DNA from: Pyrobaculum ferrireducens
Lineage (GTDB): Archaea; Thermoproteota; Thermoprotei; Thermoproteales; Thermoproteaceae
Direction: 5' to 3'
DNA length: 64,000 bases
Assembly (NCBI RefSeq): GCF_000234805.1
Contig: NC_016645.1
Span: 720,391-784,390, forward strand
Part shown: positions 9,907 to 47,982 of the stretch, piece by piece
Layout: every line of letters starts with the position of its first letter
Position numbering within the stretch: position 1 is the stretch's first letter
Made by a program: the position numbers and the translations under genes
The notes under the pieces: model-generated
Database searches by the model: none
What the model saw: only the letters and a program-made list of their open reading frames with translations
Told to the model about the DNA's origin: nothing

Positions 9907-10277
9907 TCAACTAGGTAGAGGCGCAGCGCCGGGGCCACCTCCCCAATTTTCAGGTAGTCTCTGTCTCTTGTCAATAGGGGGAGCCCGTGGGCGATGGCGG
10001 TCGCCGCTATGTATATGTCGTTTTCACTCACCGCTGTGCCTCTTTTCTTCAGCTGGGCGAAGACGTCGGCGGCTACCTCAACCACCTCGTTTGTTATGGG
10101 GAGCACGGTGAACGCCTCCTCAAGCCTCATCTTGTAAAACCGCCTCCCCCTTTACACCTAATATATTCATATACCGATTTTGAGAGATGGGGCTAGTCCG
10201 GTAGTAGCTCTAGCCTCTCTGTCTAGCACCTCGATCAGCGCTGAGGTGTCTAGGAGAGCCTCCGCGGGGACCCCCAT
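9903..10277 (-). pseudogene. vapC: VapC PIN-domain toxin with three in-frame stop codons
   Basis: From ATG 10277 the frame gives LLDTSALIEVLDREAR (first catalytic Asp at residue 10), reaches TGA at codon 37, TAG at codon 40 and TAA at codon 42, then continues in the same frame as RGRRFYKMRLEEAFTVLPI and NDIYIAATAIAHGLPLLTRD to 9903. Reading through the stops gives a normal 124-residue VapC, and the local sequence I-G-I-x-I-Y-x-V-x-R-G fits the usual IYEVLRG segment. The downstream piece alone lacks the first catalytic Asp. The gene is therefore dead as written. It overlaps its own antitoxin gene, which is also damaged. Confidence 0.85.
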
Positions 10278-10491
10278 CTCCTCCTATCTTCAAGTAGCTC
10301 CTCGACGGAGGCCGCGCCTCCCCCCCCCGGTTTTTCTCCAGCATCTCCAGTATGGCCACTCTCCTCCTCAGAAGCTTGTACTCCTGTAGTATTCTGGATA
10401 TGGCCTCCTCCATGGACCTCGCCCCGAGCCTTTCCTTCACTCTCGCAACCTGCAGAAGTTTTTTCGACACGGCTATAGTCGTCTTCTCCAC
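10250..10491 (-). pseudogene. vapB: VapB-type antitoxin frameshifted at a G9 run
   Basis: The GTG at 10491 opens MEKTTIAVSKKLLQVARVKE and RSMEEAISRILQEYKLLRRR, a ribbon-helix-helix-like VapB antitoxin. After EMLEKNRGG the frame passes a run of nine G (plus-strand C10320-10328) and becomes Arg/Pro/Gly nonsense. One extra G would restore ASVEELLEDRRRWGSPRRLS, a normal VapB tail that overlaps the vapC start. Antitoxin and toxin are thus both broken. Confidence 0.7.
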
Positions 10492-10519
10492 GCATACACC
10501 ATTATAACTCTATACAACT

Positions 10520-11875
10520 CTACCGGCCGGAGATGTCGACTAGCCCGTTCTCGGTGCACTGGGGCCTCCCAGCGGGCGCGTGGGCTAGGGGGTCCTTTAG
10601 ACGCCGTGGGAAGAACGCGGTGTATTTCTTAAACTCTTCGAGGTCGAGGATCTTCTCCTCTTGCTGAGTCACGGCCTTGTCGACGAGGAGGTCGATGTAG
10701 TAGACGCGGCGGCCCCACTCGGGTTCGGTGTTGAGGTTGATGTATGTGCCGACCGGCCTCCCGTCGGGGGTGTAGTAGGTGTGTACCACGTACCAGGCGC
10801 CGCGGGGTATGCACGTCAGCGCGTAGTAGCCCCTGCCGATCTCGACGCCGATTCCGTCCAGCACGCCCCCCGGCTTGAGCAACCTCTTCACCACCAGGAC
10901 TCCGCCCCTCACGCCTATGGACTCCCCCCTCATCTTCACCACGTCGCCCCAGGGCTTCACGTGGTAAATCGCCACCTCGCCCTTCGCCAGGTACTCCGCC
11001 GCCTTTTCGTACACGTCGCCGCCGACGTAGTCGAGGAGGTCTACGCATCTCCCAATCCCCTGGGCTCTGAGGGCGTGGTGCCCCCTAGCCGTTGGGACAA
11101 CCGAGGCCCTGGCATCGTCCAGCCTCTCCTTGCCCCACTTGTCGAAGAGGGCGATCGCGAGGCAGCTACCACGCCTCAGCACCTCGCCGGGCGCCCCGCC
11201 TTTCGAAAGCGCCAGGAGCTCTTGGTAGAGGGACTCCGCCTCCCGGGCCAGGGCCTCCTCGTCGGCGTAGCGTGCCGACGACTTGAACCTCAGCCCGAGG
11301 GTGGCGTACTGCCTCAGCCGGGACTCCGCGAGTATCCTCAGCCTCAGCCTGTCCTCCGGGGGGATGTGCTCGCTGTACGTCACCCTCCCCGTGGTGTTCA
11401 GCTCGAGGTACTCGCCGTCGACGACGATCTCCGGCACCGCCACCCCTCTGTGGGGGCCGATGGGCGGCTTCGCCACCGTGTATACGCCCACGGACCCCGG
11501 CGTGAGGACGTAGCGGCTCGGCACTTCGTACACCTCGCCTCCGGGGCCCTCCACCGCCGCCTCGCCCACCGCCCTCCCGGCGAATACCTCCTTCACGCCT
11601 GCCCTAGCCCTGGCGATAAAGGGATCGGCGTATTGAGAAAGCCTCTCTAGAAAGGCCTCCACCACCTCGCACTTCCCCACCACCACGATCCCCGTCTTCG
11701 ACTCGTGGTCCTTAACCGTGGCATCCGGCGGAGACACGTCCCTATCAATGGCGAGGCGTTTTGCGATCTTTTCGGTGGGCTGCACCACCTTAAAGCCCCA
11801 GTCCAGGGCCAGTTTGGTCAGCGCGGTGGCGTATATACCCCTAATCCTCAGACGGTACACGTCCGCCAGAGACAA
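10520..11875 (-). CDS. fau-1: probable ribonuclease FAU-1 (RNase E/G-like domain plus DUF402)
   Basis: A 451-residue protein. The N-terminal half starts RLRIRGIYATALTKLALDWG and has RDVSPPDATVKDHESKTGIV, matching the archaeal AU-1/RNase E-G-like domain. The C-terminal third carries the DUF402 fold (RGAWYVVHTYYTPDGRPVGTY, YYIDLLVDKAV). FAU-1 binds AU-rich RNA and takes part in rRNA precursor processing in Thermococcales. It is single and monocistronic here, with a TATA-like CTATAAAAACC at about 11897-11907 on the opposite strand just upstream of the start. Confidence 0.9.
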   Translation of the reverse strand: MSLADVYRLRIRGIYATALTKLALDWGFKVVQPTEKIAKRLAIDRDVSPPDATVKDHESKTGIVVVGKCEVVEAFLERLSQYADPFIARARAGVKEVFAGRAVGEAAVEGPGGEVYEVPSRYVLTPGSVGVYTVAKPPIGPHRGVAVPEIVVDGEYLELNTTGRVTYSEHIPPEDRLRLRILAESRLRQYATLGLRFKSSARYADEEALAREAESLYQELLALSKGGAPGEVLRRGSCLAIALFDKWGKERLDDARASVVPTARGHHALRAQGIGRCVDLLDYVGGDVYEKAAEYLAKGEVAIYHVKPWGDVVKMRGESIGVRGGVLVVKRLLKPGGVLDGIGVEIGRGYYALTCIPRGAWYVVHTYYTPDGRPVGTYINLNTEPEWGRRVYYIDLLVDKAVTQQEEKILDLEEFKKYTAFFPRRLKDPLAHAPAGRPQCTENGLVDISGR

Positions 11876-12033: not shown

Positions 12034-12300
12034 GTGGGTAGGGGAGGGGTGTCGAAGAGGAAAAAGACGAGTATTTCGCTGGATGCGGCGCTGTGGGAGA
12101 GGTTTGAGAAGAAGGTGGCGGCGGAGGGGAGGACCGCAAGCGCGGTTCTCGAGGAGTTGATTAGGAACTACCTCCTCGCCGACCTCTTCGCCGGGCTGGC
12201 CGATGAGAAGGCGCCGCTTGTGGTGAGGCCTGTGAAGCCTGTGGGCCCCGCCGACGCGGGGGAGGAGGTATGGAAAATGAGGCAAGAGTCTTCTATCTAG
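12034..12300 (+). CDS. vapB: VapB-family ribbon-helix-helix antitoxin
   Basis: An 88-residue protein whose GTG start lies about 25 nt after the TATA box TATTTAAAT (12006-12014), so a leaderless message is likely. SKRKKTSISLDAALWERFEK is the DNA-binding strand and first helix, followed by EGRTASAVLEELIRNYLLADL; the C-terminal part with VVRPVKPVGPAD would wrap the toxin. It overlaps vapC by 31 nt, the normal arrangement. It likely represses its own operon. Confidence 0.82.
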   Translation: MGRGGVSKRKKTSISLDAALWERFEKKVAAEGRTASAVLEELIRNYLLADLFAGLADEKAPLVVRPVKPVGPADAGEEVWKMRQESSI

Positions 12301-12731
12301 ACACCAGCGCCATTGTGAAGAGGTATGTTTTTGAGAAGCACAGCGACTACGTGGTGGAGCTGTACGACTCTTCGCTAGACGGCGAGGTGGAGCTCAGCTT
12401 CTCACTTTGGAACGTGGGGGAGACCCTCGGCGTTTTCGACCGCTACCTGAGGCGCGGCGTGCTGACAGAGGAGGCGTGGAGAGCCGCGCGGAGAAATTTT
12501 CTAGGTGAGACGAGGAGGCTCGTCTCGCTAGGCGTTTTGAAAGTAGTGGGAATCACCGCAGACTTGCTGAGAGAGTCGTGGAGGTTAATAGAGAAGCACC
12601 ACATATATCAAGCAGATGCGTTGCAAATCACCTCGGCGAGGTATGTAAAAGCGGATATACTAGTCACCGCCGATAAAAACCTGTGCAGAGTAGCCGGGGA
12701 GGAGGAGCTCGGCGTCAAGTGCCTGGCTTAG
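12270..12731 (+). CDS. vapC: VapC-family PIN-domain ribonuclease toxin
   Basis: A 153-residue PIN protein with acidic residues in the expected order: YLDTSAIVKRYVFE (Asp near residue 10), a mid-chain Glu in SLWNVGETLGVF, Asp in YQADALQITSARY, and Asp in LVTADKNLC. These form the Mg-binding pocket of VapC RNases. Unlike the pair at 9.9-10.5 kb, this operon is intact. It is convergent with the ASCH gene and overlaps it by 17 nt. Confidence 0.87.
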   Translation: MENEARVFYLDTSAIVKRYVFEKHSDYVVELYDSSLDGEVELSFSLWNVGETLGVFDRYLRRGVLTEEAWRAARRNFLGETRRLVSLGVLKVVGITADLLRESWRLIEKHHIYQADALQITSARYVKADILVTADKNLCRVAGEEELGVKCLA

Positions 12732-13200
12732 GCGGGGGTTCACAAAGCTCGTCCAGCCTCGCCCCCATGTACCTGTCCAGCCGTCTGTAGCTGGGGGGCG
12801 GCCTCAGGCCCAGGTCGCTCAGCTTGACGGGGGCGCGGCACTGGGCGTGCTCCCTCACCTGGATGAGCATGGCGTATCTCGCGCCGCGGACGTACTCCAT
12901 GTCCTCCCCGCCGACGCCCACGTCGCCGAGCTCCGCCAGCAGTTGCGGAATGTTGGAGGGGGGCGCGACGAACACGACTCCTGCCGTGAAGCGGCCGGCC
13001 ACGGCGGCTGTGGGCTTGGTGAAGTAGAGGTAAACCACGTCCCCCGGCTCCACGAGGGGCCCCGCCAGCCTCCTCAGCTCGTACTTCTTGCGGCCGCTGA
13101 GGATCTCCCAGCCGAACCTGGGCTTAATCGACATGAGGATGTAGCGGCGCGAGGGGGGCGGGTTCTCCTCAACGTCGGAGGTACTCCGGCTCTTCACCAC
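12715..13200 (-). CDS. ASCH-domain protein
   Basis: The protein carries the ASCH signature ILMSIKPRFGWEILSGRKKYELRR... near its N-terminus and the beta-barrel segment GDVVYLYFTKPTAAVAGRF, as in PUA-like ASCH proteins that bind RNA or modified nucleosides. A TATA-like TTATATTTTTT (minus strand, about 13224-13234) points to the GTG at 13200 as a leaderless start; an in-frame TTG exists at 13218. The Pro-rich C-terminus overlaps the convergent vapC. Some relatives act as RNA-binding regulators or nucleases; no specific role is claimed. Confidence 0.8.
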   Translation of the reverse strand: MVKSRSTSDVEENPPPSRRYILMSIKPRFGWEILSGRKKYELRRLAGPLVEPGDVVYLYFTKPTAAVAGRFTAGVVFVAPPSNIPQLLAELGDVGVGGEDMEYVRGARYAMLIQVREHAQCRAPVKLSDLGLRPPPSYRRLDRYMGARLDELCEPPPKPGT

Positions 13201-13246
13201 TCCGACGCCTCCACCCAAGTTAAAAAATATAACCTTTTCCCCCTAC

Positions 13247-20682: not shown

Positions 20683-21147
20683 CTATTTGAGGAATTTCTT
20701 GAGTTTTTCGACGAGCGTCAGCACGTCGCTTCTATGAATTCTAAACGATGCCTCTCTCAGAAAGCCGTGGTAGAAATTTGCGCGTAGCCTCTCTGCGGAG
20801 GCGAAAAGCCGGGGGATGTCGCCGTCTCCAGACTCCTCATGCAGTACTTCGACGACCTCGGCGTAGTCCCTGTGGCTGAAGTGACGGAGGCCCCGCCTCT
20901 CCGCAATTGCGCTGAGCAGAGCGGTGACAGCTCCCCAATACTTCTCACCAGCTTGCTGGAGGTCGCCCTTTTGATACAGCTCCTCAGCCTCCCTCAAGTA
21001 CTTCTCGTGGAGCTTTAGATAGACCTCAACCCGCTCTGGGGGGTCCAGCCTCGCCGCCAGCAACTCTACTAAAAACTCTTCGAGATCACGGCCGCCCGCC
21101 GCCCTTCTGAGAATTTCGGCGATCGGTGGGGAGATCACCAAAGCCAC
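20683..21147 (-). CDS. PaREP1-like (HEPN-related) protein
   Basis: A 154-residue helical protein with YLKLHEKYLREAEELYQKGD, LQQAGEKYWGAVTALLSAIA and RANFYHGFLREASFRIHRSD. The middle segment corresponds to the N-A-A-G-K-x-F-Q-A-x-K block of PaREP1, here QAGEKYWGAVTAL, and the FYHGFL segment to the H-x-Y block. It is a divergent member compared with those at 6418 and 49835. Start is GTG 21147, with an in-frame GTG three codons later. Role unknown. Confidence 0.75.
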   Translation of the reverse strand: MALVISPPIAEILRRAAGGRDLEEFLVELLAARLDPPERVEVYLKLHEKYLREAEELYQKGDLQQAGEKYWGAVTALLSAIAERRGLRHFSHRDYAEVVEVLHEESGDGDIPRLFASAERLRANFYHGFLREASFRIHRSDVLTLVEKLKKFLK

Positions 21148-21779: not shown

Positions 21780-22532
21780 GTGTACGTGGCGGAGTGGCGC
21801 CTCGTCGAGCTGAGGCTGAGGGCGGAGGGTCCCTGCCCAATGGCCGGCTGGTCGGGGTCGGCCGCCTACAGAATCCTGCTGGAGACCACGAGGCGGGAAG
21901 CCGAGCCCAAAAACAAGATATACGCCCACCCAATATACGTCGGCGGGAGGCCCCTCCTCACCGGAGTAGACGGCAGAGCCGCCGTCCTAGAGCCAGGCAC
22001 CAGACTCGCCATAAGGGCGGTGATGTCTGAGCAAGACGCCTACTACCTCCTCGCCGCGGTGTCCAAAAACCCCCGCCCGGAGGCCCCCTGCCACCTAGAG
22101 GCGGAGCAGCTCTCCCTCACGGCGCTGGAGCCCGCCCTCCCCGACGGCCACGGATTCGCCACCGTCAAGCTGGTCTTCGCCCCCACGGCCTTCATGTTCC
22201 ACGGCAGAGACGTCCTCTACCCCTCCCCCCAGCGCATCGCCTACAGCCTAACCAAGACCTACAGAGACCTATTCGGCACAGACCTCAAACAGCTCGCCGA
22301 CCGCGCCCCCACGGCGCTGGAGCTGACCCACTTCGCCGTGAGGCCAGTCCGCGTCGGCATAGGAGAGGCCCGCGCAGTCCCCGCCTACATAGGCAAGGCG
22401 GAGCTCGCCATATACGGCAACGTCGAAACCTGGCTAGCCCTCCTAAAACTAGGCCAAGCCACAGGCGTAGGCATATCCCGCGCCATAGGCTTCGGCAAAT
22501 ACAAAATAAAAGAGGTCAAGAAACACGCCTAG
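21780..22532 (+). CDS. cas6: CRISPR endoribonuclease Cas6
   Basis: A 250-residue RAMP protein. It begins VAEWRLVELRLRAEGPCPMA, has the mid-protein block YPSPQRIAYSLTKTYRDLFG found in archaeal Cas6, and ends with the glycine-rich loop GVGISRAIGFGKYKIKEV, the C-terminal RAMP hallmark. Cas6 cuts the precursor transcript within each repeat to leave an 8-nt handle, and could serve both arrays at 41-48 kb and the Cmr complex encoded next door. It starts at GTG 21780 and converges with the unknown gene ending at 22516. Confidence 0.85.
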   Translation: MYVAEWRLVELRLRAEGPCPMAGWSGSAAYRILLETTRREAEPKNKIYAHPIYVGGRPLLTGVDGRAAVLEPGTRLAIRAVMSEQDAYYLLAAVSKNPRPEAPCHLEAEQLSLTALEPALPDGHGFATVKLVFAPTAFMFHGRDVLYPSPQRIAYSLTKTYRDLFGTDLKQLADRAPTALELTHFAVRPVRVGIGEARAVPAYIGKAELAIYGNVETWLALLKLGQATGVGISRAIGFGKYKIKEVKKHA

Positions 22533-23022
22533 ATCCCACACCACACCTCATACCTGAATCAGCTACACAACGAGTCAAGCGGCCCCCCAGAGCATCCTCC
22601 CACACCCTCCCCTCCACAACCTCCCCACATCTCCACGGACTATCTAAATAAACCGCGACATCGGCATCGGCGCACAGAAGCTCTCTCACCGGCGTAGGCG
22701 TCTCAGAAACGTCCCTAACCCACACCCAATCACACACTGTAAATATACTGTCTCCAAAAACATCCTCTTTTAAAAACGGCGAGGGGCTTGCCACCGCCGC
22801 CACCGCCCTATCCACAAAACCTCTCAGCAACTCAAACGCACGCTCAGGCGAGTAGGCACCCTCAGCCACAGCTAGACACCCCCCATACACCTCAAAATCC
22901 TCATCAAGCCAGTACTTCCTCAAGGTAATAGACACAGCCTCGTAGCCGCCAACCTCTCTCCTCCTCACTAGAAAATCCTCCCCCAGATCGGGACAGCCCC
23001 CCCTACAAAACGCTAAGAGCAT
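22516..23022 (-). CDS. unknown protein C of the cmr-linked cassette
   Basis: A 168-residue protein not recognised. It starts MLLAFCRGGCPDLGEDFLVR, has a central segment AVAEGAYSPERAFELLRGFV and ends in a Cys-bearing region (LTRCVADSGMRCGVGSRRVS). Seven Cys are spread over the chain (positions about 6, 10, 49, 96, 118, 133, 152, 159). It overlaps the upstream Cys-rich gene by 10 nt and is the last gene of the cmr4-5-1-6 operon, so it is probably made with the Cmr complex. Its end overlaps the convergent cas6 by 17 nt. Confidence 0.7.
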   Translation of the reverse strand: MLLAFCRGGCPDLGEDFLVRRREVGGYEAVSITLRKYWLDEDFEVYGGCLAVAEGAYSPERAFELLRGFVDRAVAAVASPSPFLKEDVFGDSIFTVCDWVWVRDVSETPTPVRELLCADADVAVYLDSPWRCGEVVEGRVWEDALGGRLTRCVADSGMRCGVGSRRVS

Positions 23023-23402
23023 ACCTTACACACACCACAAGGCTCTTCACAACATCTATACAACCGAATTCTCTTCCTTTCCAGTTCCCTCCTAAGACTA
23101 TCGCTAACATACGGCATAGCAACCCCGTACTCTAATCTCCCCTTCACAGATAGATAGCTCTTAATATTATTAAACTTATTCTCCACTTCTACCAGCAACG
23201 AGTGCCTCTCTCCCTTATCCCCCATTACACGTGTCCCAATCTTACACTTGCACTCCACCAAGACATACCTACCCCTCCCCACTTTCACAACCCATTCTGG
23301 CGCCTTATCATAAATCTGACCACAGCCATAAGGACAGCCCCGATTCACCGTCGATTTATCCAGCACACAAGCCTCGCACCCTCCCAGCCTGTGCATAACC
23401 AC
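23013..23402 (-). CDS. small Cys-rich putative PD-(D/E)XK nuclease, protein B of the cmr-linked cassette
   Basis: A 129-residue protein with eleven or more Cys in clusters: GGCEACVLD, GCPYGCGQIYD, VECKCKIG and YRCCEEPCGVCKVCS. Between them lies a strand-turn-strand GRGRYVLVECKCKIGTRV with E-x-K, preceded by an acidic residue in IYDKAPEWVVKV, the layout of a PD-(D/E)XK core. Cys at both ends around such a core recalls Cas4, where four Cys hold an Fe-S cluster, but the protein is much smaller and is not Cas4 by overall sequence. The GTG start shares one base with the ATPase stop. Nuclease activity is an inference. Confidence 0.6.
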   Translation of the reverse strand: MVMHRLGGCEACVLDKSTVNRGCPYGCGQIYDKAPEWVVKVGRGRYVLVECKCKIGTRVMGDKGERHSLLVEVENKFNNIKSYLSVKGRLEYGVAMPYVSDSLRRELERKRIRLYRCCEEPCGVCKVCS

Positions 23403-24181
23403 TACACCGACAGCTCCACCTCAGCCACACGCCTCAAATCGTCTAGAGAAGACACGCGGCTGAAACCGCCGTCATAGACGTAATACACAGACCAGCCCTC
23501 TACAAGCGCAGTCTTCACAGTTATTGCCAAATGAGTTTCCATCAATACCCATGCTCTTATCTTCGAGAGGAATTTGATAAGCGTTGTAGCCAAGTCGTAG
23601 TGTAACCCGGCTTCAAAAGCCTCTATAGCTAACAAATCAACGTCATAAGACGTAGCAACTATTCCAAGCGCCCTCTTGTACCCATACGCGAGGTCCCTCA
23701 TCTCAATCCATATATCCCCCTGCTTCGCCTTGTCGCCATATACCTTGTCCACCGTGGTGACGTTCCAATTCTCCTCCAGGTACTCAGCTAGCGACGGATC
23801 TTTAATCTCAACAGTCCCCTTACACAAATCCAGCGGATCTCCCAACCGCGTCGAAACAGCATCACAAGGACCCACGTATCCGACTCCGAGCCGCCGACGC
23901 GGCCCCTCGCACTTAATCCGCCCCACGCTATACATGCACGTTACTACGCCACCTCCGTCCAGCTCAACCACCACCTCCCACTCACTACCTAACTCCCCCG
24001 GCGACTTTAAGAAATCCCAATTTCTCGTAGATCCAAGTTCCAAACCTTCATAAAGCGCACGGAGCACCAGGTGGATAAAGGTAGATTTACCCCCGCCATT
24101 TGGTCCGAAAAGTAATATCTTATTACCTACAACCTCCGTTGAGAAATTTTTATACGTTCCCTGAGCCTTAATTCTCACCAC
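23402..24181 (-). CDS. ABC/AAA-type ATPase, protein A of the cmr-linked cassette
   Basis: A 259-residue ATPase of the SMC/OLD-like class: Walker A LLFGPNGGGKSTFIHLVLRA near residue 24, a signature-like RDLAYGYKRALGIV, then DLLAIEAFEAGLHYDLATTL where the usual I-D-E-P-E-A-G-L-H is I-E-A-F-E-A-G-L-H, and WVLMETHLAI for the switch His. The Walker B Asp is thus Glu and the usual catalytic Glu is Ala. No coiled coil is present. It begins 9 nt after cmr6 on the same strand. This ATPase-plus-nuclease order resembles other ATPase/nuclease defence pairs. No specific family is recognised. Confidence 0.75.
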   Translation of the reverse strand: MVRIKAQGTYKNFSTEVVGNKILLFGPNGGGKSTFIHLVLRALYEGLELGSTRNWDFLKSPGELGSEWEVVVELDGGGVVTCMYSVGRIKCEGPRRRLGVGYVGPCDAVSTRLGDPLDLCKGTVEIKDPSLAEYLEENWNVTTVDKVYGDKAKQGDIWIEMRDLAYGYKRALGIVATSYDVDLLAIEAFEAGLHYDLATTLIKFLSKIRAWVLMETHLAITVKTALVEGWSVYYVYDGGFSRVSSLDDLRRVAEVELSV

Positions 24182-24190
24182 GTTATATAT

Positions 24191-24928
24191 TTAGAATTTA
24201 AATTTAAATCTTCCGTATCCTAACGAAGTCCTAGCCCCCACGCCTCTTGCTAACGCGTCAGCTATTCTCTGCTGAAGCTCCGCGATACACCCTACATCGG
24301 CATCCGCGGCAATGATGAAAGCAAACTCCACACCTGGCGGCACCGTGGGGTAAACCAGCGGAGTAGGGCTCGCCTCCACCTCAGAGATTTCCCCCTCCAC
24401 TTCTCGGTAATGGGGCGTAATGATATCCGGCTCCATAACCTTTTCCCACTTCACGGGATATGCGTCGAATACGACAAGCATGCCCTTATGCTCCGCATCG
24501 CCGAACAGCTCCACCGCATCTAATCCACACGCCTTATCAATATGGTGGCTCAGCAGACCCTTAAGCGAGCTACCCGGGATATAAGGCACATTCAACAGGG
24601 GATGGATAGCTAGCCCAATCTCTAAGGGCAGGTACGGCCACTTTGTGTGAATCGTTAGCGGAGTCCTTAACGTAAATCGCAAAATAGCAACGTTTTTGAA
24701 TACCGCCTTAGCAGACTCGTAGAGCTCCTCCACATATTTCTCCACGTCTTTTGGAGAAGGCCAGCTGGGGGGATTCTCGTAGATATACAACACAGTATCC
24801 CTCGAAAATTCTGCAATAGCCACACTCCCGCCGCCACTCGCCTTGAGAAAACCCAACACGACACAAGATGTAATATTATACGCGCCAGAACAGTTAAAGT
24901 ATCTCCCACTAACGTTGCTCACGGCCAT
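24191..24928 (-). CDS. cmr6: type III-B RAMP protein Cmr6
   Basis: A 245-residue RAMP with LRFTLRTPLTIHTKWPYLPL, the loop YIPGSSLKGLLSHHIDKACG, AVELFGDAEHKGMLVVFDAY and the C-terminal GVGARTSLGYGRFKFKF. The block KVMEPDIITPHYREVEGEIS is typical of Cmr6. It caps the backbone of the Cmr complex together with Cmr1. It overlaps cmr1 by 10 nt and precedes the ATPase gene by 9 nt. Confidence 0.88.
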   Translation of the reverse strand: MAVSNVSGRYFNCSGAYNITSCVVLGFLKASGGGSVAIAEFSRDTVLYIYENPPSWPSPKDVEKYVEELYESAKAVFKNVAILRFTLRTPLTIHTKWPYLPLEIGLAIHPLLNVPYIPGSSLKGLLSHHIDKACGLDAVELFGDAEHKGMLVVFDAYPVKWEKVMEPDIITPHYREVEGEISEVEASPTPLVYPTVPPGVEFAFIIAADADVGCIAELQQRIADALARGVGARTSLGYGRFKFKF

Positions 24929-26052
24929 AGCCTACTCATACTCCCACCAAGCTTCTCCACATACTCCCGGAACTCGGACAAAGCTGTATCATACGCCTCA
25001 GAAACTTTCTCAAAGTCTATATTAATCTGCTGATCACCGCCACCTGTCCACTCCAGCGCCGTAGGCCAGTCGGCTGATCTAATCACAGTAAGATAGCCGC
25101 CTCTACCCGTCACATGGTTGTTGTGGAAGGAGACAATAAAAGTCGACGCACGTCTCTTGACATCGCCCTTAATCCCATAGCCCGTCTCTGTCTTCTCCTC
25201 TTTCCGCGGAAGGCCAAGAACCCACGCCAAGAGCCTCTCCCTAAGCTCATCCGGAATGGCGTAATTGCCCTTCAGCACGCGGGCCCTATGCGACCGCAAA
25301 AAGAAGTCGTGTAAATGAGAGAAATTTAACCCCTCTACGCGGTAGATCTCCGCCACACCCTCTGCGACAGCTGGCATAGGCGGAAACGGAGGACGTTTGC
25401 CAGAACACGGAGATATCCACCTCCTAAGCCACCCCCTCACGTCCTCCACTAGTTGTTTTAAATCACGGGCAAGGCGGAAGCGGTACACCGCTGTGACGTC
25501 AATAGAGCCAAGCCCCTTCCGCCCTCCCTTCCCCAGACCCTCAAGCGTCAACGCAACCAACAGAACCTCAAGAGCTTGCGGCGGGCCGCCTCCACTTACC
25601 TCCAGCTCAAAATCGCCCCCCACAGCGTACTCTATTGGCGGCTTTTTGCGGGTTAAATAAGCGAACCTATGCACATCCGCCCAATACTCCCTCACCCGCA
25701 CCTTACCCTTGGTACGGTCTATAGAGGGCTCCCTTAACACCCTGATATCCAACGCGAATTTGGATGCCATTGCCGCCTTTTCGCCAGCATATCCTAGACC
25801 CATCACAGTGCCCACCACCCTAGATACCGCCTCAGCCTCTCTCGATGTGGGAACTAACAGCACATCCTTACCGCTCCTGCCCGCTAGACACCCCATTTCG
25901 TACATGACCCCGGCGACGAAGGCCCGAGCCCACCACCTCCAAAGACCCTTTACAGACGGCGGCCTGATATAGAACCACCTGTCAAGCACCTCAGGTTTGT
26001 ACCACCCAAGAGACATCGGCGTTGCAATAGTAAGCCTAAATACCGCAGACAT
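24919..26052 (-). CDS. cmr1: type III-B RAMP protein Cmr1
   Basis: A 377-residue RAMP starting AVFRLTIATPMSLGWYKPEV with IRPPSVKGLWRWWARAFVAG, the Cmr1 N-terminal signature, and a glycine-rich LEGLGKGGRKGLGSIDVTAV loop in the middle. Two RAMP domains fit the length. Cmr1 sits at the 3'-guide end of the complex and helps bind target RNA. I use ATG 26052, which shares a base with the cmr5 stop (TGATG); a GTG lies directly upstream in frame. Confidence 0.88.
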   Translation of the reverse strand: MSAVFRLTIATPMSLGWYKPEVLDRWFYIRPPSVKGLWRWWARAFVAGVMYEMGCLAGRSGKDVLLVPTSREAEAVSRVVGTVMGLGYAGEKAAMASKFALDIRVLREPSIDRTKGKVRVREYWADVHRFAYLTRKKPPIEYAVGGDFELEVSGGGPPQALEVLLVALTLEGLGKGGRKGLGSIDVTAVYRFRLARDLKQLVEDVRGWLRRWISPCSGKRPPFPPMPAVAEGVAEIYRVEGLNFSHLHDFFLRSHRARVLKGNYAIPDELRERLLAWVLGLPRKEEKTETGYGIKGDVKRRASTFIVSFHNNHVTGRGGYLTVIRSADWPTALEWTGGGDQQINIDFEKVSEAYDTALSEFREYVEKLGGSMSRLWP

Positions 26053-26474
26053 CACTTGAAATACGCCTCAGCCAGCAACTTAATCCACCTAGCCACCTCC
26101 CTAGACTTCAGCGCGGAGCTTGGTCGCTTCAACTCCATTAAAACATCCTCAAAAGACGTGGAGCTAACTACTCCCACCTTCTTCATCGTGTAGAGAAGCA
26201 CAGCGCCATACAGCGCATACGCCTTCCACTCAGGCCCCTCCCTAGCGTTCATCACACCTTCCACAACCTCTCTACAGCTCTCGGCACGCAACCCTAGCTC
26301 TACAGCATCTTTAGAAGATCTGGCGGCGGCCACGGCAACGACATATGCAGGACCCAGCACATAGAGATCTGAGATCAAAGAGCGAGCCCTACTCGCGTAG
26401 CGCGACTGGATATCTCTCGACTTAACCTCAGCGACAGCCTTAGTACACTCAACGGCAAAGTCTATTTGATCCAT
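26052..26474 (-). CDS. cmr5: type III-B small subunit Cmr5
   Basis: A 140-residue all-helical protein with SRYASRARSLISDLYVLGPA near residue 24 and AYALYGAVLLYTMKKVG, matching Cmr5 in size, helix pattern and place between cmr4 and cmr1. Cmr5 lines the inner groove of the complex. The start overlaps cmr4 by 13 nt. Confidence 0.85.
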   Translation of the reverse strand: MDQIDFAVECTKAVAEVKSRDIQSRYASRARSLISDLYVLGPAYVVAVAAARSSKDAVELGLRAESCREVVEGVMNAREGPEWKAYALYGAVLLYTMKKVGVVSSTSFEDVLMELKRPSSALKSREVARWIKLLAEAYFK

Positions 26475-27334
26475 ATTCTCACCAGACCCTTACCAATAGT
26501 CTCCTTCCCCCCCACCCAAAGCACAGCAGGGTTACCGCCTAGAAGGTTGTTAAACAATGCACATACCTTATCAGCTGTTCTATCCCCAACATCTCTACAA
26601 ACCACCGCCGAATGGAAAAGAGTAAACTGCGGCACATACTCCTCGCTCCACAAACCCCCCTCAGCCACCGTCTTAGTCTCCCTATTCAGCCTCACCCTGT
26701 ACTGAACCAAGAGCGATCTATCAATCACCTCGCGGCTTAAGTCGTCGCCAACAACAGCAATATCAAACTTCGGCAACTGGATCCCCAGGTTCCTCAACGC
26801 ATTAGCAAAGGCCTCCACCACGGGGTCAACAGAAGCCTCAACCTCTACCTCGTTAAGAAAAATCTTCCCATTGTCAACGTAATCCTTAGAGGATACTAAC
26901 GCCTTGTTTTTAATGCTATTATTGATAAGCTTTTGCGCGTTCTCCACAGCATCTTTAAAGCCTTCCCTCTCACCACCCTTATACACCTCGGCATATGTTG
27001 TAAAAAGTCTTAACAAATGAGGTGTGGTAACGTATATCCAGACACCCCTCAGCGATCTTGCGGGCATGAGGAGGAGCCTGGCGTCAAGTAGCGTAACGCC
27101 GGAGATGGAGTCTGGCCGCTCCCCCGGCTCCCTACCAAACACTAAGCGAACGTCATTCCCCGCCCCCCTCTTGTATGCATGCGACTTCAAAGCACCCTTG
27201 AGCGAAGACGCCCAAATCACGGGTAATTCAAACTCATCTCTCTGAACAGGCAGATCCACATGAGCTCCCTCAGCTCGGCCCACTCCCACATGCAGAGGCG
27301 ATAGGGCGTATACAAACAGCGCTAAAGCTTGCAT
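26462..27334 (-). CDS. cmr4: type III-B backbone RAMP and target-RNA nuclease Cmr4
   Basis: A 290-residue RAMP: ALFVYALSPLHVGVGRAEGA, then VQRDEFELPVIWASSLKGAL with the R-D and glycine-rich motif of Cmr4, and the C-terminal LLGGNPAVLWVGGKETIGKG. Cmr4 forms the repeated backbone and its Asp residue cuts target RNA every six bases in known complexes; the Asp in QRDEFELPV is the likely catalytic one. It is first in the minus-strand operon cmr4-5-1-6-A-B-C. Confidence 0.9.
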   Translation of the reverse strand: MQALALFVYALSPLHVGVGRAEGAHVDLPVQRDEFELPVIWASSLKGALKSHAYKRGAGNDVRLVFGREPGERPDSISGVTLLDARLLLMPARSLRGVWIYVTTPHLLRLFTTYAEVYKGGEREGFKDAVENAQKLINNSIKNKALVSSKDYVDNGKIFLNEVEVEASVDPVVEAFANALRNLGIQLPKFDIAVVGDDLSREVIDRSLLVQYRVRLNRETKTVAEGGLWSEEYVPQFTLFHSAVVCRDVGDRTADKVCALFNNLLGGNPAVLWVGGKETIGKGLVRIWIK

Positions 27335-27381: not shown

Positions 27382-30300
27382 ATGAAATCACTAACCGAGT
27401 TTTTCCTAGCAAAGCTGTGGACCCTCCTCCACGATCCCCCACACAAGGTCTGGATTCTAAAAGACGGAAAAAGATGCCTAGATGCCGATACCAACATAGA
27501 AAGCTGGGCTGAGCAACATAAGTTACGGGGACATGAAAGAGATGCTCTGAAAATTTTCGACAGCTTTCTAAATGGCAGAGCACATGAGTATCTCAAAGAG
27601 CCCCTACTACAACTTGCCAAAGAAGCTGACCACTACTCATCTTCATTTGATCGCTGGATTAGCAATATAATATTTATACTTGACTCAAAAAATATCATTA
27701 AAAATATAGTATTTGAATACTACAATCTACACAATATATTCTCTCCATCTAATTACGTAATTTATGTAAAAAATCCTGATGAAAAAGTACTATGTGATAG
27801 AATTAAAAAATGGGTGGCCCGCATCAGCGGATTAACAAATGGCGTTGACAACATAGAGCTTGTGTACCACTTAGTCTATGCATCGGCTGAGCTGGCGTGG
27901 ATAAAGGAGGACCTACCTCCACCCTTAGCAGAGACCCGCGTGCCTACACACACAATCTTTGACCACCTCTACGCCGCCGCCATGACAGTTAACTGGCTGT
28001 GGGAAGATCGGCAGAACACCGAAGATACGGCCTCACGGGACCGGCAGAACACCGAAGATACGGCCTCACGGCCTTTCTCGCTCATGCCCAAGGGCTATTA
28101 CGTCGTGATAGACACACCCGGCGTCTCAAAAATTTTAGAGGCGTCGAGAAAGGCAGGAGACTTCTGGGCAGGTAGCTGGCTAGTCTCTGCCTTGATGTGG
28201 CTTACGGCGTGGAGCTATATCAAGTCCTACGGACCCGACATCTTGCTTACCCCCACGGCCAGATTCAACCCGTTCTACTACGAATTCCTTAGACTCTGGC
28301 TTGAAAAAGAAAACAAGAAGCAGATAGCGGACAAGCTAATCCAACTATACGAAGACGTTATAGCGATGGCTGTGGGGGCAAAAAACGGAGTAAAACTAAG
28401 TTATCTACTGAGACACGCAATTATTCCACCTACAATCACTCTCGCACTACCAAAAAAAGAAAATGTTGAGAAACTAGAAGAAGAAATACTACAAAACTTT
28501 AACCAAGCATATCGGTGCATAATACATGGACTAGTGCTAGGAGAAGAAAGAAACATAGAATGTACTGATGAAATAGTTAAAAAATTCATAGAAACATGGA
28601 AAAGTCAAATAGATGAGAATATTCTAAAACCCGTAAAATCCATACTATACGAAATCCAACCACATCTCTTTGAACAATTATTAATTCCACGAATAGTAAT
28701 TATAGATATAGAAAAGCTATATACCGAGTTCCAAAATATTATAACAGGTCAAAGTAAAGAAACAATAGATAATATTAATAAAGAAACATATCAAAAATTC
28801 CTTAAATTCCTTAAAAACTTTAAAGAACAAAAATCAGATTCTAAAAAAATAGACGAGGACATGATATCTAAATATCTACTCTTCCATGTAGTAACTAAAG
28901 AAGCCCTTAGACAACTCATAAATACAACAATGCTACCTGTCGGCAGAACTTGGTTTACACTAGACGGCCAACCACTGATGGACTACCAGAAATTCACAGA
29001 TGCGCCAGGCTGGATATTCTGCACCACTTGCCTACGAGAGCCGGCAGTCGTAAAATTCGGCAAGGCGTGGAAAGTAAAAGACGGTGTTCCCGTAGTCTCT
29101 TACGACGACGAGACAATAAAGAGGCTTAATATAGACGGCAACGTTGACGAGCTACAAAAAATCTTCAAGCCTGGCGAGGCTCTAGGCCCCCTATGTCTCC
29201 TCAAAAGATTACTTTATCTTTCAACAACCCTACGTCCGAAATTTGACACAACCGAGGACGTAGCCATTGGATGGTATACCAGGAGGATATATAGAGAGAT
29301 ATCTCCCCTCCTCAAAAATACGCAAACTAGAGAATGCAACGTCGCAGTCAAATACATCGAACAGAAAAGAGGCCGGGATATCCTGGCCTACGGCCCAATA
29401 GAAGAGATACGGCGCCTGTTTAGAAAATGCGCAGAGTCTGTAGAAAAGTATGTGGATAAAGATACGGCAACCAAAATTAGTAGATTTTATGGCGCTACAC
29501 AATTATATGCACTACTAGAGTTAAGAGATACCTACGCTGTGATAAAAGCCGACGCAGACGACATACGCAAAGTCTACACTGGAAACATCCCAACCACGTC
29601 ATATAAACAGTTGTTGATACAACTCGCAGATCACAGCGATAGCAGAGATGTAAAAGAATTCTTCACAGACCTGCTGAAATTGCTAAACGCCCTCGAGGAA
29701 TTGACCAATGGAAAAATACTAGTTTCACCAACATACTATGCCGCCCTCTCGCTTTCGCTTATGATAACTGCACTTAAAGATATATACAAAGTGGAAAAAA
29801 TCTACGAGGGTATGACCGTGTACGCGGGTGGAGACGACGTACTAGCCCTAGCGTCTGTGGACGCCTCGCTACACGTAGCCGAAACGATGAGGCGTAATTA
29901 CTGGGGTGACGGAGGCTTCCACAGAATAGGCCAATACGCCATACCTGCGGTAGTGGTGACTGGCAGAAGCATATCAGTCAGATACGTCAACGTGCTCGAC
30001 CATATGGGCGGCGAGATATCGAAAACATTAGAACTGTTAAAAGAAGCGAAAAAAACCACCTGGTTGCTGGGCGGCAGAGAAGTTAGAAAAGATACGCTGG
30101 TGATAAGCGACTCGAGAACCAACACCTCTGCATACCTCCCACTAATAGATTCAAGAAATAGAGTAGGCACATACATAAAATATCTAAGAAAAATGTGGGG
30201 GATGATGATCGGCGGAGAACTCAGCGGCAACGCCCCGTCTGACTACATAGCTACATTCGGCGACGTGACGGAGAAATTACTCGACGAAGAAGCCCTCGTC

Positions 30301-30450
30301 AAAATTTACGAATACACGCTCAGTAGAAACCTCAAAAAAGCCGCCGCATGGAAATACGCAGATGTAGCGGCAGAGGCAAAGAAAGAGGGCAGAACCCCAC
30401 TGGGAGACGAAATAATGAAAGCACTGGCCATACTCAGAAGATACCCATGA
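27382..30450 (+). CDS. cmr2: type III-B large subunit Cmr2 (Cas10)
   Basis: A 1022-residue Cas10. The N-terminus has LWTLLHDPPHKVW, an H-D pair of the DNase HD domain. A zinc finger spans about residues 546-605 (FCTTCLREPAV ... LGPLCLLKR). The palm domain has YAGGDDVLALASVD with GGDD at about 816-819, the cyclic-oligoadenylate synthesis motif, and an earlier IKADADDIRKVY. It should therefore be able to make signalling nucleotides. The gene is clearly more AT-rich than its surroundings and holds a 33-bp tandem duplication near residue 210. Its stop overlaps cmr3. Confidence 0.92.
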   Translation: MKSLTEFFLAKLWTLLHDPPHKVWILKDGKRCLDADTNIESWAEQHKLRGHERDALKIFDSFLNGRAHEYLKEPLLQLAKEADHYSSSFDRWISNIIFILDSKNIIKNIVFEYYNLHNIFSPSNYVIYVKNPDEKVLCDRIKKWVARISGLTNGVDNIELVYHLVYASAELAWIKEDLPPPLAETRVPTHTIFDHLYAAAMTVNWLWEDRQNTEDTASRDRQNTEDTASRPFSLMPKGYYVVIDTPGVSKILEASRKAGDFWAGSWLVSALMWLTAWSYIKSYGPDILLTPTARFNPFYYEFLRLWLEKENKKQIADKLIQLYEDVIAMAVGAKNGVKLSYLLRHAIIPPTITLALPKKENVEKLEEEILQNFNQAYRCIIHGLVLGEERNIECTDEIVKKFIETWKSQIDENILKPVKSILYEIQPHLFEQLLIPRIVIIDIEKLYTEFQNIITGQSKETIDNINKETYQKFLKFLKNFKEQKSDSKKIDEDMISKYLLFHVVTKEALRQLINTTMLPVGRTWFTLDGQPLMDYQKFTDAPGWIFCTTCLREPAVVKFGKAWKVKDGVPVVSYDDETIKRLNIDGNVDELQKIFKPGEALGPLCLLKRLLYLSTTLRPKFDTTEDVAIGWYTRRIYREISPLLKNTQTRECNVAVKYIEQKRGRDILAYGPIEEIRRLFRKCAESVEKYVDKDTATKISRFYGATQLYALLELRDTYAVIKADADDIRKVYTGNIPTTSYKQLLIQLADHSDSRDVKEFFTDLLKLLNALEELTNGKILVSPTYYAALSLSLMITALKDIYKVEKIYEGMTVYAGGDDVLALASVDASLHVAETMRRNYWGDGGFHRIGQYAIPAVVVTGRSISVRYVNVLDHMGGEISKTLELLKEAKKTTWLLGGREVRKDTLVISDSRTNTSAYLPLIDSRNRVGTYIKYLRKMWGMMIGGELSGNAPSDYIATFGDVTEKLLDEEALVKIYEYTLSRNLKKAAAWKYADVAAEAKKEGRTPLGDEIMKALAILRRYP
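28009..28074 (+). repeat. 33-bp in-frame tandem duplication in cmr2
   Basis: The unit starting CGGCAGAACACCGAAGATAC at 28009 is repeated at 28042 with almost no change. It adds a second copy of RQNTEDTASRD-like sequence (11 residues) and keeps the frame. The near-identity points to a recent event; the insert would lie in a surface loop before the palm domain. Confidence 0.9.
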
Positions 30451-31442
30451 CAAGCAATCAAAAGACGCTGGTGCTTGTAATCAAGCCGCTGGAGCCGCTC
30501 CACTTCGGCAAGACGCAGATCCCCGGCATAGACCTCGCCGGCAGAGACGCTGCCTTCACGGCGCCCCCGCCCTCGACAATATTAGGCCTCCTCGCCTCTA
30601 TAAAAGGCATCAACTACTACAACAAGCCAAAACCCTGCAACCGTCCACTAGAAGATCTCAAAACCACATATAGAGAATTGACGGGAGAAGAACTAACACC
30701 CACAATAGAGGGGGTAGACAGACCCCTCATTTGGGGGCCAGTAGTATACATAGAAAAAATCCCACATATACCTATCGAGGGAGGATATTTTGTACCTAGA
30801 GGAGAAATGGAGAAATACATCGATAATGCCGCAGGAGAAAACTCAAAAATCAAAATCAAGAAAGCAACAGTCAACATAAAGCCAGGCATAGCCCTAGACC
30901 CGACGTCCAAAACCCCCAGATACGGCTACCTCTACGGAGCCACATATGTAGGCTACCCCCTTGCATCAGAGATACGCTACGTCGTAAACATGGCAATCCC
31001 CACAGATCAAAACTACAAAGGGGTCTACAGACTCGGAGGAGAAGGCAGACTAGCCCAGATAGAGTTAAGAGAAAAACCAGTAGACATAAGAGGAGAAAAA
31101 CCGGAAGGTGAATCCAAAAAGAGCGAAGATGCCATAGTGCTGACTCCCCTCCTTTTCCAGCCAGAAGACGGCTATGCAAGAACGGCAGGCCACCCAAAGG
31201 GTCCAACACCCGGCCTTGAATGCGTCGAAGAGATACGCGGCATCTACACTGGCGACACATTCAAAATTGTCGCCGAGCCAATGGGGCTCGGCTACAGTGA
31301 GGTATGCAACAGAAGGAGACCACTCTACTACGCCCTCCCACCTGGAACCGTAGTAAAAATAAAATGTAAATATAAAGCAGTTGGCCTCTTCTCACAACTA
31401 GGATATGGAGCGATAATAAGAACTAAAGATAGACTTCCCTGA
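30447..31442 (+). CDS. cmr3: type III-B RAMP protein Cmr3
   Basis: A 331-residue RAMP of Cmr3 type: LVIKPLEPLHFGKTQIPGID at the N-terminus, APPPSTILGLLASIKG, and the C-terminal glycine-rich LFSQLGYGAIIRTK. Cmr3 pairs with Cmr2 and holds the 5' handle of the guide RNA. I take ATG 30447, which overlaps the cmr2 stop (ATGA), over an upstream start within cmr2. AT content matches cmr2, so they likely moved together. Confidence 0.88.
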   Translation: MTSNQKTLVLVIKPLEPLHFGKTQIPGIDLAGRDAAFTAPPPSTILGLLASIKGINYYNKPKPCNRPLEDLKTTYRELTGEELTPTIEGVDRPLIWGPVVYIEKIPHIPIEGGYFVPRGEMEKYIDNAAGENSKIKIKKATVNIKPGIALDPTSKTPRYGYLYGATYVGYPLASEIRYVVNMAIPTDQNYKGVYRLGGEGRLAQIELREKPVDIRGEKPEGESKKSEDAIVLTPLLFQPEDGYARTAGHPKGPTPGLECVEEIRGIYTGDTFKIVAEPMGLGYSEVCNRRRPLYYALPPGTVVKIKCKYKAVGLFSQLGYGAIIRTKDRLP

Positions 31443-41284: not shown

Positions 41285-41365
41285 TACGTGCCGTGCTGAT
41301 ACACCACGCCTATGATCACCTCGGCGGTCGAGCATTTTAGCGGCCGGCCTCATCTCGCCTATCAT

Positions 41366-42476
41366 GTTTCAACTATCTTTTGATTTCTGGCCGTAGGCGG
41401 CGCCGCACAGCAGGCGCAGGTCAAGGTGACGTAGTTTCAACTATCTTTTGATTTCTGGTTGGCGAGAGGTTCGGCTGTCTTGCGTATGGCTATATCTTTA
41501 TCGCGTTTCAACTATCTTTTGATTTCTGGGCCGGGCAACTCCGGTGGGCCGGCATATCTGAGGCAATGATTGTTTCAACTATCTTTTGATTTCTGGTTGC
41601 CGAGATGGTTGTGCTGAATTACTACACGTTACTTGTCTGGTTTCAACTATCTTTTGATTTCTGGTATGAGTGCCACCGGTACCCAACGTACTGCGCCCAC
41701 AATATTCTGTTTCAACTATCCTTTGATTTCCGGTAGCTTAGTTGCCACGCACTCCGCGTAGCTCTCATGCCAGTAGTTTCAACTATTTTTTGATTTCCGG
41801 CGCTGTACCCGTAAAACTGCCTCCCCTCCAGAATCCAGTCCTCGTTTCAACTATCTTTTGATTTCCGGCCGCGATCCACTTGCGCGGTAGAGCGTGATCG
41901 GGGTAGAAGTTTCAACTATCTTTTGATTTCCGGCTGTACCTAAGCGACTATGACATGTGCTTGCGTTGTAGGGATGGTGTTTCAACTATCTTTTGATTTC
42001 CGGACTGGCGCCAGGCTCAGGAGGGTCAAGGCGGGTAGCCTCAGGCTGTTTCAACTATCTTTTGATTTCTGGGTCGGGGCACGCCCTGACGCGGATCCCC
42101 AGCTTCCTCCCGGTGTTTATGTTTCAACTATCTTTTGATTTCTGGGGTCCTGAGGAAGATTAATTCGCGTTTAGCTGGCCCCAGGTTTCAACTATCTTTT
42201 GATTTCTGGATACCTCCAGAAAGAGCGGGGGAGCCGCCTCAGACAGATATATGTTTCAACTATCTTTTGATTTCTGGGACATAAGGAACGCAGTTGACGT
42301 GGAGTACCTCCGCGCTGTGAGTTTCAACTATCTTTTGATTTCTGGCCGGCGTCTAGTAGCAACTTGGCAACTTCTACACTGTTGCGTTTCAACTATCTTT
42401 TGATTTCTGGTCCCTAGTCCCATAAACTAAACCCACGCTTTTTTCAAGGGCGTTTCAACTATCTTTTGATTTCTGG
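41366..42476 (-). CRISPR. CRISPR array, 17 repeats, transcribed leftwards
   Basis: Seventeen 25-nt repeats (plus-strand form GTTTCAACTATC...GATTTCTGG) start at 41366, 41434, 41505, 41572, 41640, 41709, 41776, 41844, 41909, 41979, 42048, 42121, 42185, 42253, 42321, 42386 and 42452, with 16 unique spacers of about 39-48 nt. The leader lies at the right end (42477-42669), so the newest spacer is at 42411-42451. Five successive repeats (41709-42003) end in TTTCCGG instead of TTTCTGG, and those at 41709 and 41776 carry further changes. The repeat is the same as in the right array. Confidence 0.97.
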
Positions 42477-44790: not shown

Positions 44791-45295
44791 ACCCACGCCC
44801 TGGGACGTGCTGGAGCTGGAGTACTGCCCCCGCTACCTCTGGCTCTCTAAGAGACACGGCGTCCCCGTCACCCCCTCCATGAGGGCGGGGAAATCCGCCG
44901 AGCCGGAGCTGAGGCGGAGGCTCGCCGCGGCGCTGGGGGGAGAGCCGAGGCCTGTGTACATAGACGCGGGGTGGGCGCACGGCGTCGTGGACCTCCTCGT
45001 CGTGAGGAAGTCTGCGGTCCCCGTCGAGATAAAGACCGGCGCCCCCCGGCCCGAGCACAAGTGGCAGCTGTACGCAGAGGCCTACCTCGTGAAGGCGGCG
45101 GGCTACGCAGTCACAAGGGGGGTGCTGGCGTATGGAGAGAGGCTGAGGAGCCTCCAGGTGACCCCCGCCGAGCTTAAAGCGGCTGAGCGGTTGCTGGCAA
45201 AGGCGGCTGAGGTGGTGGAGGGCCCGCCGCCGCCCCCGAGGAGGAGCCCCAAATGCGCCTACTGCCAGTACAGAGCCATATGTACCTATACATAG
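44768..45295 (+). CDS. cas4: CRISPR Fe-S exonuclease Cas4
   Basis: A 175-residue Cas4: first Cys in ELEYCPRYLWLSKRHGV, the nuclease core AHGVVDLLVVRKSAVPVEIK with Asp and E-x-K, the QLYAEAYLV helix, and three more Cys in KCAYCQYRAIC. All four Fe-S ligands and the PD-(D/E)XK residues are visible. Cas4 trims prespacers and sets the PAM end. This is the second Cas4-type gene of the operon besides csa1, the usual crenarchaeal pair. Confidence 0.93.
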   Translation: MYRPSSYRPTPWDVLELEYCPRYLWLSKRHGVPVTPSMRAGKSAEPELRRRLAAALGGEPRPVYIDAGWAHGVVDLLVVRKSAVPVEIKTGAPRPEHKWQLYAEAYLVKAAGYAVTRGVLAYGERLRSLQVTPAELKAAERLLAKAAEVVEGPPPPPRRSPKCAYCQYRAICTYT

Positions 45296-46608: not shown

Positions 46609-47982
46609 CCAGAAATCAAAAGATAGTTGAAACGACAAGAGCAGTAGCGCGATTTCCTCTGTGCTCATCTTCTCAAGCAGAAATCAAAAGATAGTTGAAA
46701 CCACCCCACGTATGTAAGCGCGGTTCCTAGGCCGTAGAATGCTCCCAGAAATCAAAAGATAGTTGAAACTAGTAGTACACCGACGGGAGGTACACCGCGC
46801 CGTACCTCCCCACGCAGAAATCAAAAGATAGTTGAAACTGCTGAGGAACTCCTCCCAGGACCAGGGGACTGAAATCGACACAGAAATCAAAAGATAGTTG
46901 AAACCACTGGGTCTAACAGCCCAAGAAGCCCGGCGAGCGCCAGCCAGAAATCAAAAGATAGTTGAAACTTTCACAGAGGCGGGGCCGCCCACGCGATGCC
47001 CACCAGAAATCAAAAGATAGTTGAAACTCTAATTAGTTTCCGAAAGCCTGGACGCTTCAGTGGATCCTTACCAGAAATCAAAAGATAGTTGAAACTAGAT
47101 CTATATCTCTGGTTGTGAGTAGCAGAACTTCCGAACCAGAAATCAAAAGATAGTTGAAACAAGGATGAACCACGCGTACTCCGTTATCTTAACCCACTCC
47201 CCCCCCCCCCCCAGAAATCAAAAGATAGTTGAAACATGTCTGCGTGTGCGCCCAACACTCCGTCTTCGACGGGGCATACCAGAAATCAAAAGATAGTTGA
47301 AACTCGAGGAGCTGTGGGGCGAGGTGAACAAGGCTATCGAGACGGTCCAGAAATCAAAAGATAGTTGAAACAAACGGAGGCGTCGAACCCTGTCCACAAG
47401 GGGCTCTACATACTCTCCAGAAATCAAAAGATAGTTGAAACAGCTCCATAACTTGCATTGTCTTTGCCGTTCCGGGAGGACCAATCCAGAAATCAAAAGA
47501 TAGTTGAAACGTAGAGTCTGAGGCAACCACGCGGCGTCTTGACTACCCTCTCCAGAAATCAAAAGATAGTTGAAACCAGCGTGCCTGGCGCGGTCGCATT
47601 CGCAACTATGGACATACCAGAAATCAAAAGATAGTTGAAACCTGTATGCGACACGTCTTGGAGCCTAAACATGTGCAGCCTGACCAGAAATCAAAAGATA
47701 GTTGAAACTAACTATTCAACATGTACGCTATGACGCCTCCCCGCAACTCAAACCAGAAATCAAAAGATAGTTGAAACCGATGTAAGCGGCTCTATGGCTG
47801 GGGGGCGTAAGCCGCAGTCCAGAAATCAAAAGATAGTTGAAACCGGCTGGCCATGTCGGGCGTGTGGGCCACCAGGAAGGCGGGCTTCCCAGAAATCAAA
47901 AGATAGTTGAAACATCGACGAGATACTGTCGATGTCACGCGAGAGGTCTGAGGTGACCAGAAATCAAAAGGATAGTTGAAAC
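46609..47982 (+). CRISPR. CRISPR array, 21 repeats, transcribed rightwards
   Basis: Twenty-one repeats (CCAGAAATC...GTTGAAAC) start at 46609, 46677, 46745, 46814, 46880, 46944, 47003, 47071, 47136, 47211, 47279, 47347, 47417, 47486, 47552, 47617, 47684, 47753, 47819, 47889 and 47957, with 20 spacers. The newest spacer is 46634-46676. Some leader-proximal repeats differ in the first base (GCAG or ACAG), and the last repeat has an inserted G (26 nt), a sign of the old end. The spacer 47161-47210 is unusually long (50 nt) and ends in 12 C. Confidence 0.97.

Follow-up and report, generated by a model that had tools for sequence, protein, structure and literature searches.

A three-gene cassette adjoins the cmr genes of a type III-B CRISPR locus in Pyrobaculum ferrireducens and recurs, as an ATPase gene with two small genes, at 13 cmr loci. 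In the stretch of DNA that we analysed (64,000 nucleotides, here called the window), its genes encode an ABC/SMC-type ATPase (A), a Cys-rich probable PD-(D/E)xK nuclease (B) and a member of a protein family catalogued without function (C). The cassette is conserved and linked to cmr, it co-diverges with Cmr1, and A is homologous to ATPases of known systems and lacks the usual catalytic glutamate. The cassette is probably an undescribed extra arm of Cmr (RNA-targeting CRISPR) immunity in heat-loving archaea; whether it is a type III-B accessory module of Thermoproteales and of one or more further orders of the phylum we regard as evenly balanced. A gene order that is constant at cmr loci over two orders, together with the co-divergence with Cmr, suggests a second CRISPR output or a guard, which would use none of the known cyclic-oligoadenylate (cOA) sensors.

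Gene layout and recurrence at cmr loci

In the window, A (23402–24181; 259 aa), B (23013–23402; 129 aa) and C (22516–23022; 168 aa) lie downstream of cmr4 (26462–27334; TIGR02580, E = 1.2e-65), cmr5 (26052–26474; PADLOC Cmr5, 2.6e-57), cmr1 (24919–26055; PADLOC Cmr1, 1.5e-11) and cmr6 (24191–24928; TIGR01898, 1e-30), all on the minus strand. On the plus strand, cmr2/cas10 (27382–30450; TIGR02577, 5.5e-59) and cmr3 (30447–31442; TIGR01888, 2.2e-18) are divergent from them. The open reading frame of cmr3 as listed begins at 30348, and the ATG at 30447, which overlaps the cmr2 stop, is the likelier start. Cmr2 retains the GGDD motif noted in the sequence-only reading and also carries an N-terminal LHDPP (HD) motif. 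On the other side of the cassette, cas6 (21780–22532, plus strand; PF10040, 8.8e-13) is convergent with C and overlaps it by 17 nt. The spacing of 9 nt between cmr6 and A, the 1-nt overlap of A with B and the 10-nt overlap of B with C were all confirmed. From this spacing, co-expression with cmr, as claimed earlier, is likely at the window locus, but it is not obligatory, because several other loci have the block on the opposite strand or at a distance from cmr6.

The window also holds two CRISPR arrays of about 15 and 20 repeats (41365–42476 and 46609–47914), with a cas4 gene between them at about 44807–45286. A probable antitoxin–PIN toxin pair lies at 12034–12731 and 12715–13218 and is followed by a small protein that matches PADLOC PDC-M11B (3.6e-15). 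Downstream of the cas6 region, positions 20683–21147 encode a helical protein of 154 aa that has no PADLOC match and presumably resembles the HEPN-like PaREP1 proteins of Pyrobaculum.

Relatives of A occur in 12 of 41 close genomes, and the A profile matches 11 of 398 genomes of the phylum at 1e-18 or better. Examination of the surroundings of the A relatives gave the 13 cmr loci: the window; L028, the second cmr locus of the same genome; L029–L031, L033–L035 and L038 from Pyrobaculum-like genera; L036 from another family; L057 from another order; and the more distant loci L059 and L062. L028 (9412–12702) is a complete second locus of cmr, A-B-C and csx1. In the two Pyrobaculum-like genera the cassette is found near every intact cmr4 (9 of 9), and the cmr loci L060 and L061 are without it. 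The block follows cmr6 on the same strand in the window, L028, L033–L035, L038, L059 and L062, is on the opposite strand in L030 and L057, lies beyond cmr3 in L031 and is divergent from cmr4 in L036; despite these changes of place and strand, the order A-B-C is constant. Because other cmr loci have relatives of all three genes, arranged alike, the set is more than a chance arrangement. The co-occurrence next to cmr that the sequence-only reading had proposed to look for is thus present at 13 loci, so the cassette is neither a single occurrence nor remote from defence genes elsewhere, and the earlier suggestion of an independent defence module is not supported, as few copies lie anywhere but at a type III locus.

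Several copies are degraded. L029 (8759–9534) and L033 (10185–11581) have tandem second cassettes with deleted or decayed remnants of A and B, C being intact in the former and A in the latter. In L030, B (10200–10660) contains a single in-frame stop, after which the frame runs on to the usual CGEKVCRVCSWCS end; this is either a nonsense mutation or a sequencing error. In L032 (9440–11830), from a genome without cmr4, A is intact, B is truncated to 80 aa and C is missing; a 208-aa protein and a PIN-like protein come next, and the genes are convergent with a non-cmr type III locus. The A homologue of L037 was left out of the set, as it is weak (1e-20) and adjoins no cmr gene. A wider contig scan with the A alignment was overwhelmed by matches to Walker A motifs in general; the three loci that it returned were bacterial and unrelated. 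We found no match for A in the viral contigs or plasmids searched and none for C in the phages searched. In the cassette-free cmr locus L061, the genes for a different P-loop ATPase (362 aa) and, after it, a protein of 153 aa (379–1925) may form an analogous module.

Pairwise distances across the 13 loci correlate with those of Cmr1 for A (r = 0.74), B (r = 0.56) and C (r = 0.82), and the distances of A, B and C correlate with one another (r = 0.56–0.77); none of 5,000 permutations reached the observed values in either comparison. L030 and L038 are two cassettes of one genome that fall into different groups, each matching its own cmr, which indicates that the cassette tracks the cmr locus and not the species. 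Divergence is faster in B and C than in A, and faster in A than in Cmr1; between L034 and L035, for example, identity is 82% for Cmr1, 70% for A, 55% for C and 41% for B. Fast evolution of B and C is as expected for parts in conflict with viruses.

The ATPase, the candidate nuclease and the third protein

A matches Pfam AAA_21 above the cut-off (1.4e-7). It has the Walker A motif LFGPNGGGKST (GPNGGGKST at 24080–24106, minus strand), an ABC-like signature, LAYGYKR, and the Walker B region DLLAIEAFEAGLHYDL (23591–23638, minus strand), with Ala at the position of the catalytic Glu. In a search of the PDB with a profile of the 15-member A family, the best match was AriA of the PARIS system (2.9e-14), followed by Rad50 (9.4e-10), PtuA (2.9e-9) and the ATPases of retrons Ec78 and Ec83 (about 3e-7). 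By sequence, then, A belongs with the ABC/SMC-type ATPases, and the ATPases of solved structure that are closest to it serve in defence or repair. The core residues of Walker A and the H-loop (E-[TS]-H) are conserved in the family, most members retain a signature of the LSYGQRR type, and the Walker B acid is E or D. The catalytic-Glu position, which aligns with the E of 'IDEPE' in AriA (Q in another deposited AriA chain), is occupied in the 15 relatives by A, T, G, A, V, P, N, N, N, N, D, N, G, D and N. As none of them has E, the odd Walker B of the earlier description is shared by the family as a whole and does not set the window copy apart. The missing Glu suggests slow or absent ATP hydrolysis, although the activity of one OLD-family ATPase from an archaeon survived mutation of Walker B (PMC12796447).

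B contains 11 Cys in 129 aa (Cys content in B is 8–10%), with clusters at both ends, and has the core PEWVVKVGRGRYVLVECKCK (PE...E-C-K; 23241–23300, minus strand). Aligned relatives share the Cys clusters and a core of the form PD-x(n)-hydrophobic-ECKC, exemplified by PDCLLVLVGPRGPAEKILVECKCN in L028 and CPDLVFKIKRMCYLVELKVK in L057. Most relatives have PD...ECKC, as does L059; the window has PE...ECKC and L057 PD...ELK, and further non-canonical residues are SCK for ECK in L062 and T for K in L033–L035, beside PE for PD in the window. Profile comparison relates the B subgroups at E values of 9e-5 and 7e-7, against 0.5–0.8 for unrelated controls. B had no match in Pfam, NCBIfam, PADLOC or the PDB, where a profile search gave chance matches only. 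Against Cas4 and Hjc profiles built in this analysis, the B profile scored 26.5 and 22.0, in register on PD...ExK, with an hhalign probability below 12%. Unrelated families from these loci reached at most 21.5 against Cas4 and 19.6 against Hjc, and true homologues scored 44.1 (Csa1-like against Cas4) and 31.7 or 19.4, depending on direction (Hjc against Cas4). The E-C-K-C-K core with flanking Cys that had been read as PD-(D/E)xK-like is supported by the core that the relatives share, with profile scores above those of the unrelated families tested. The motif and the weak profile signal make B a likely, not an established, PD-(D/E)xK nuclease; with a probability this low, its membership of the Cas4/Hjc group is not established. 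An Fe–S cluster could be one reason for the Cys richness; zinc and disulphides are others. Disulphides are common in Pyrobaculum proteins. Single-sequence AlphaFold models of B and C (pLDDT 33 and 40) were unusable and are not drawn on here.

C, described as unrecognised in the sequence-only reading, turned out to match PADLOC cas_RFas, which is catalogued without function (PDLC01070, E = 9.3e-50). PDLC01070 matches 6 of 14 C-family members and PDLC01095 matches 4; both models bear the name cas_RFas and together cover 10 of the 14. The two main C subgroups are related to each other (profile E = 3e-5), and the C of L057 is weakly related (1e-3). The third genes of L059 and L062 could not be linked to C, with a profile E of 0.48, the same as for unrelated pairs, and membership of C in the Hjc/Cas4 group was rejected, as its scores were within the unrelated range. 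A PDB profile search with C gave only chance matches, and the literature searched did not reveal where the name cas_RFas ('cluster 17 associated') comes from.

Effector context and competing explanations

The sequence-only reading had reasoned that no CARF effector is encoded in the operon and that the cassette might therefore be the effector. The premise holds for the 64-kb window, where we found no CARF gene, but the one csx1 found in this genome adjoins its second cmr-A-B-C locus. The cassette has a csx1 (CARF9-HEPN) or a relative of csx1 nearby at L028–L031, L033, L034, L057 and L059, and motif matches place one at L036 and L062; csx1 co-occurs with the cassette in at least 9 of the 13 loci. 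This coexistence weakens the argument and indicates that the cassette supplements csx1 and does not substitute for it.

That A-B-C is a dedicated Cmr accessory, an ATPase-controlled nuclease module working like PARIS or Septu, is in our judgement an even call. For contact between A and B, the trigger, the substrate and the role of C within such a module, we infer the following scheme. A would bind ATP, form a dimer or larger scaffold and control the separate nuclease B; because the usual catalytic Glu is absent, A might serve as a slow ATP-dependent clamp or switch. C would join the two, probably to regulate or inhibit B or to serve as an adaptor for it. On infection, activation of Cmr, or viral interference with it, would alter A, and the altered A would release or switch on B, which would then cut nucleic acid, so that the output is either an effector arm or a guard of Cmr. 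A more specific version, which we offer tentatively as possible, is a CARF-independent type III-B arm in which a hydrolysis-impaired, AriA-like A senses activation of Cmr, by contact, or its inhibition and unleashes the Cys-rich PD-(D/E)xK protein B, a PARIS-like guard inside CRISPR.

Should A-B-C watch the Cmr complex and fire on viral inhibition, not downstream of Cas10, its cmr linkage and fast co-divergence would stem from A or C recognising Cmr or viral inhibitors. The strong co-divergence with Cmr1 fits this idea, as does the fact that AriA, the closest solved relative of A, belongs to a system that fires on Ocr and Arn, which are anti-restriction proteins of phages (PMC11455837). A guard is also favoured by the searches of A, B and C, which revealed no CARF domain, and by csx1, which already gives most cassette loci a cOA effector; A is, however, much shorter than AriA, and we consider this reading rather doubtful. 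A direct Cas10-dependent effector, in which A or C senses a second messenger, cOA or other, is unlikely: GGDD is present in Cmr2 of all cassette loci tested and the window locus has no csx1 of its own, but Pfam, NCBIfam and PADLOC gave no CARF or SAVED match for any of the three proteins, and the frequency of csx1 leaves no effector gap to be filled.

The tight cmr linkage and the co-divergence with Cmr1 would also suit a helper in the assembly or operation of Cmr (loading, turnover of target or crRNA, or spacer uptake) and not a separate weapon, and B scores slightly closer to Cas4 than to Hjc. Yet the cmr loci of two genomes (G019 and G021) are without the cassette, which means that Cmr does not need it, and the rate of evolution of B and C is far above that of Cmr1; such a role is distinctly unlikely. 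Least probable is a selfish, toxin–antitoxin-like addiction module parked beside cmr. That copies in L029 and L033 have been duplicated in tandem and have decayed recalls such elements, but the near-confinement of copies to type III loci and the searches of plasmids, viral contigs and phages, which gave no match for A or C as described above, speak against it, and we hold it to be very improbable. The ATPase–nuclease defence cassette linked to cmr that was first proposed thus keeps its linkage, its gene order, its co-divergence and the relatives of its ATPase, with B as a nuclease only probable. A pair of an ABC ATPase and a nuclease in which the ATPase has no catalytic Glu would be a useful test of the role of ATP hydrolysis in such defence systems.

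Comparison with known systems

Among the three proteins, C maps to an already named family, cas_RFas (PDLC01070, PDLC01095); A and B are not in that family. A survey of type III accessory genes by Shah et al. reportedly appeared in 2019, and A or B may already be in it. Effectors of the Csx1 (CARF-HEPN) type lie beside the cassette at many loci and differ from A, B and C, which have no CARF or HEPN match. A genus-wide study of Pyrobaculum CRISPR loci lists cmr, cas and csx1 genes and leaves the A-B-C genes unnamed (PMC3396285); the array of L038 matches exactly the coordinates given there for Crispr6 of P. calidifontis (1203351–1205855), and that of L033 matches Crispr5 of P. oguniense within one base. 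Type III accessory genes have mostly been sought through CARF or SAVED domains or, as in a 2024 survey for new effectors (PMC11229360), at loci where Cas10 is HD-less and no effector has been recognised. A screen of that type would miss the cassette, because the Cas10 HD is retained and csx1 is usually present.

A shares Walker A, the ABC signature and the H-loop with Rad50, SMC and OLD proteins but, at 259 aa, has little room for a coiled coil, lacks the catalytic Glu and is paired with a protein that is not Mre11. In Gabija and OLD systems a Toprim domain is fused to the ATPase, whereas A consists of the ATPase domain only. B aligns with Cas4 and Hjc on PD...ExK and, like Cas4, has Cys near the C terminus; it differs in its size of about 130 aa and in having Cys clusters at both ends. 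Septu and the retron ATPase systems resemble the cassette in combining a separate ABC ATPase with a nuclease, but PtuB is an HNH partner and B has no HNH match, and no reverse transcriptase is present among the annotated neighbours of the cassette. The closest likeness of A is to PARIS, in which an AAA_21/ABC-type ATPase also acts with a separately encoded nuclease. AriA, however, has 464 aa and the catalytic Glu that A lacks, its partner AriB is a Toprim/OLD-type nuclease where B has a PD-(D/E)xK-like core and no Toprim match, and the cassette has a third gene and is tied to cmr. Given these differences in partner nuclease and Walker B, the cassette is not a member of PARIS or Septu.
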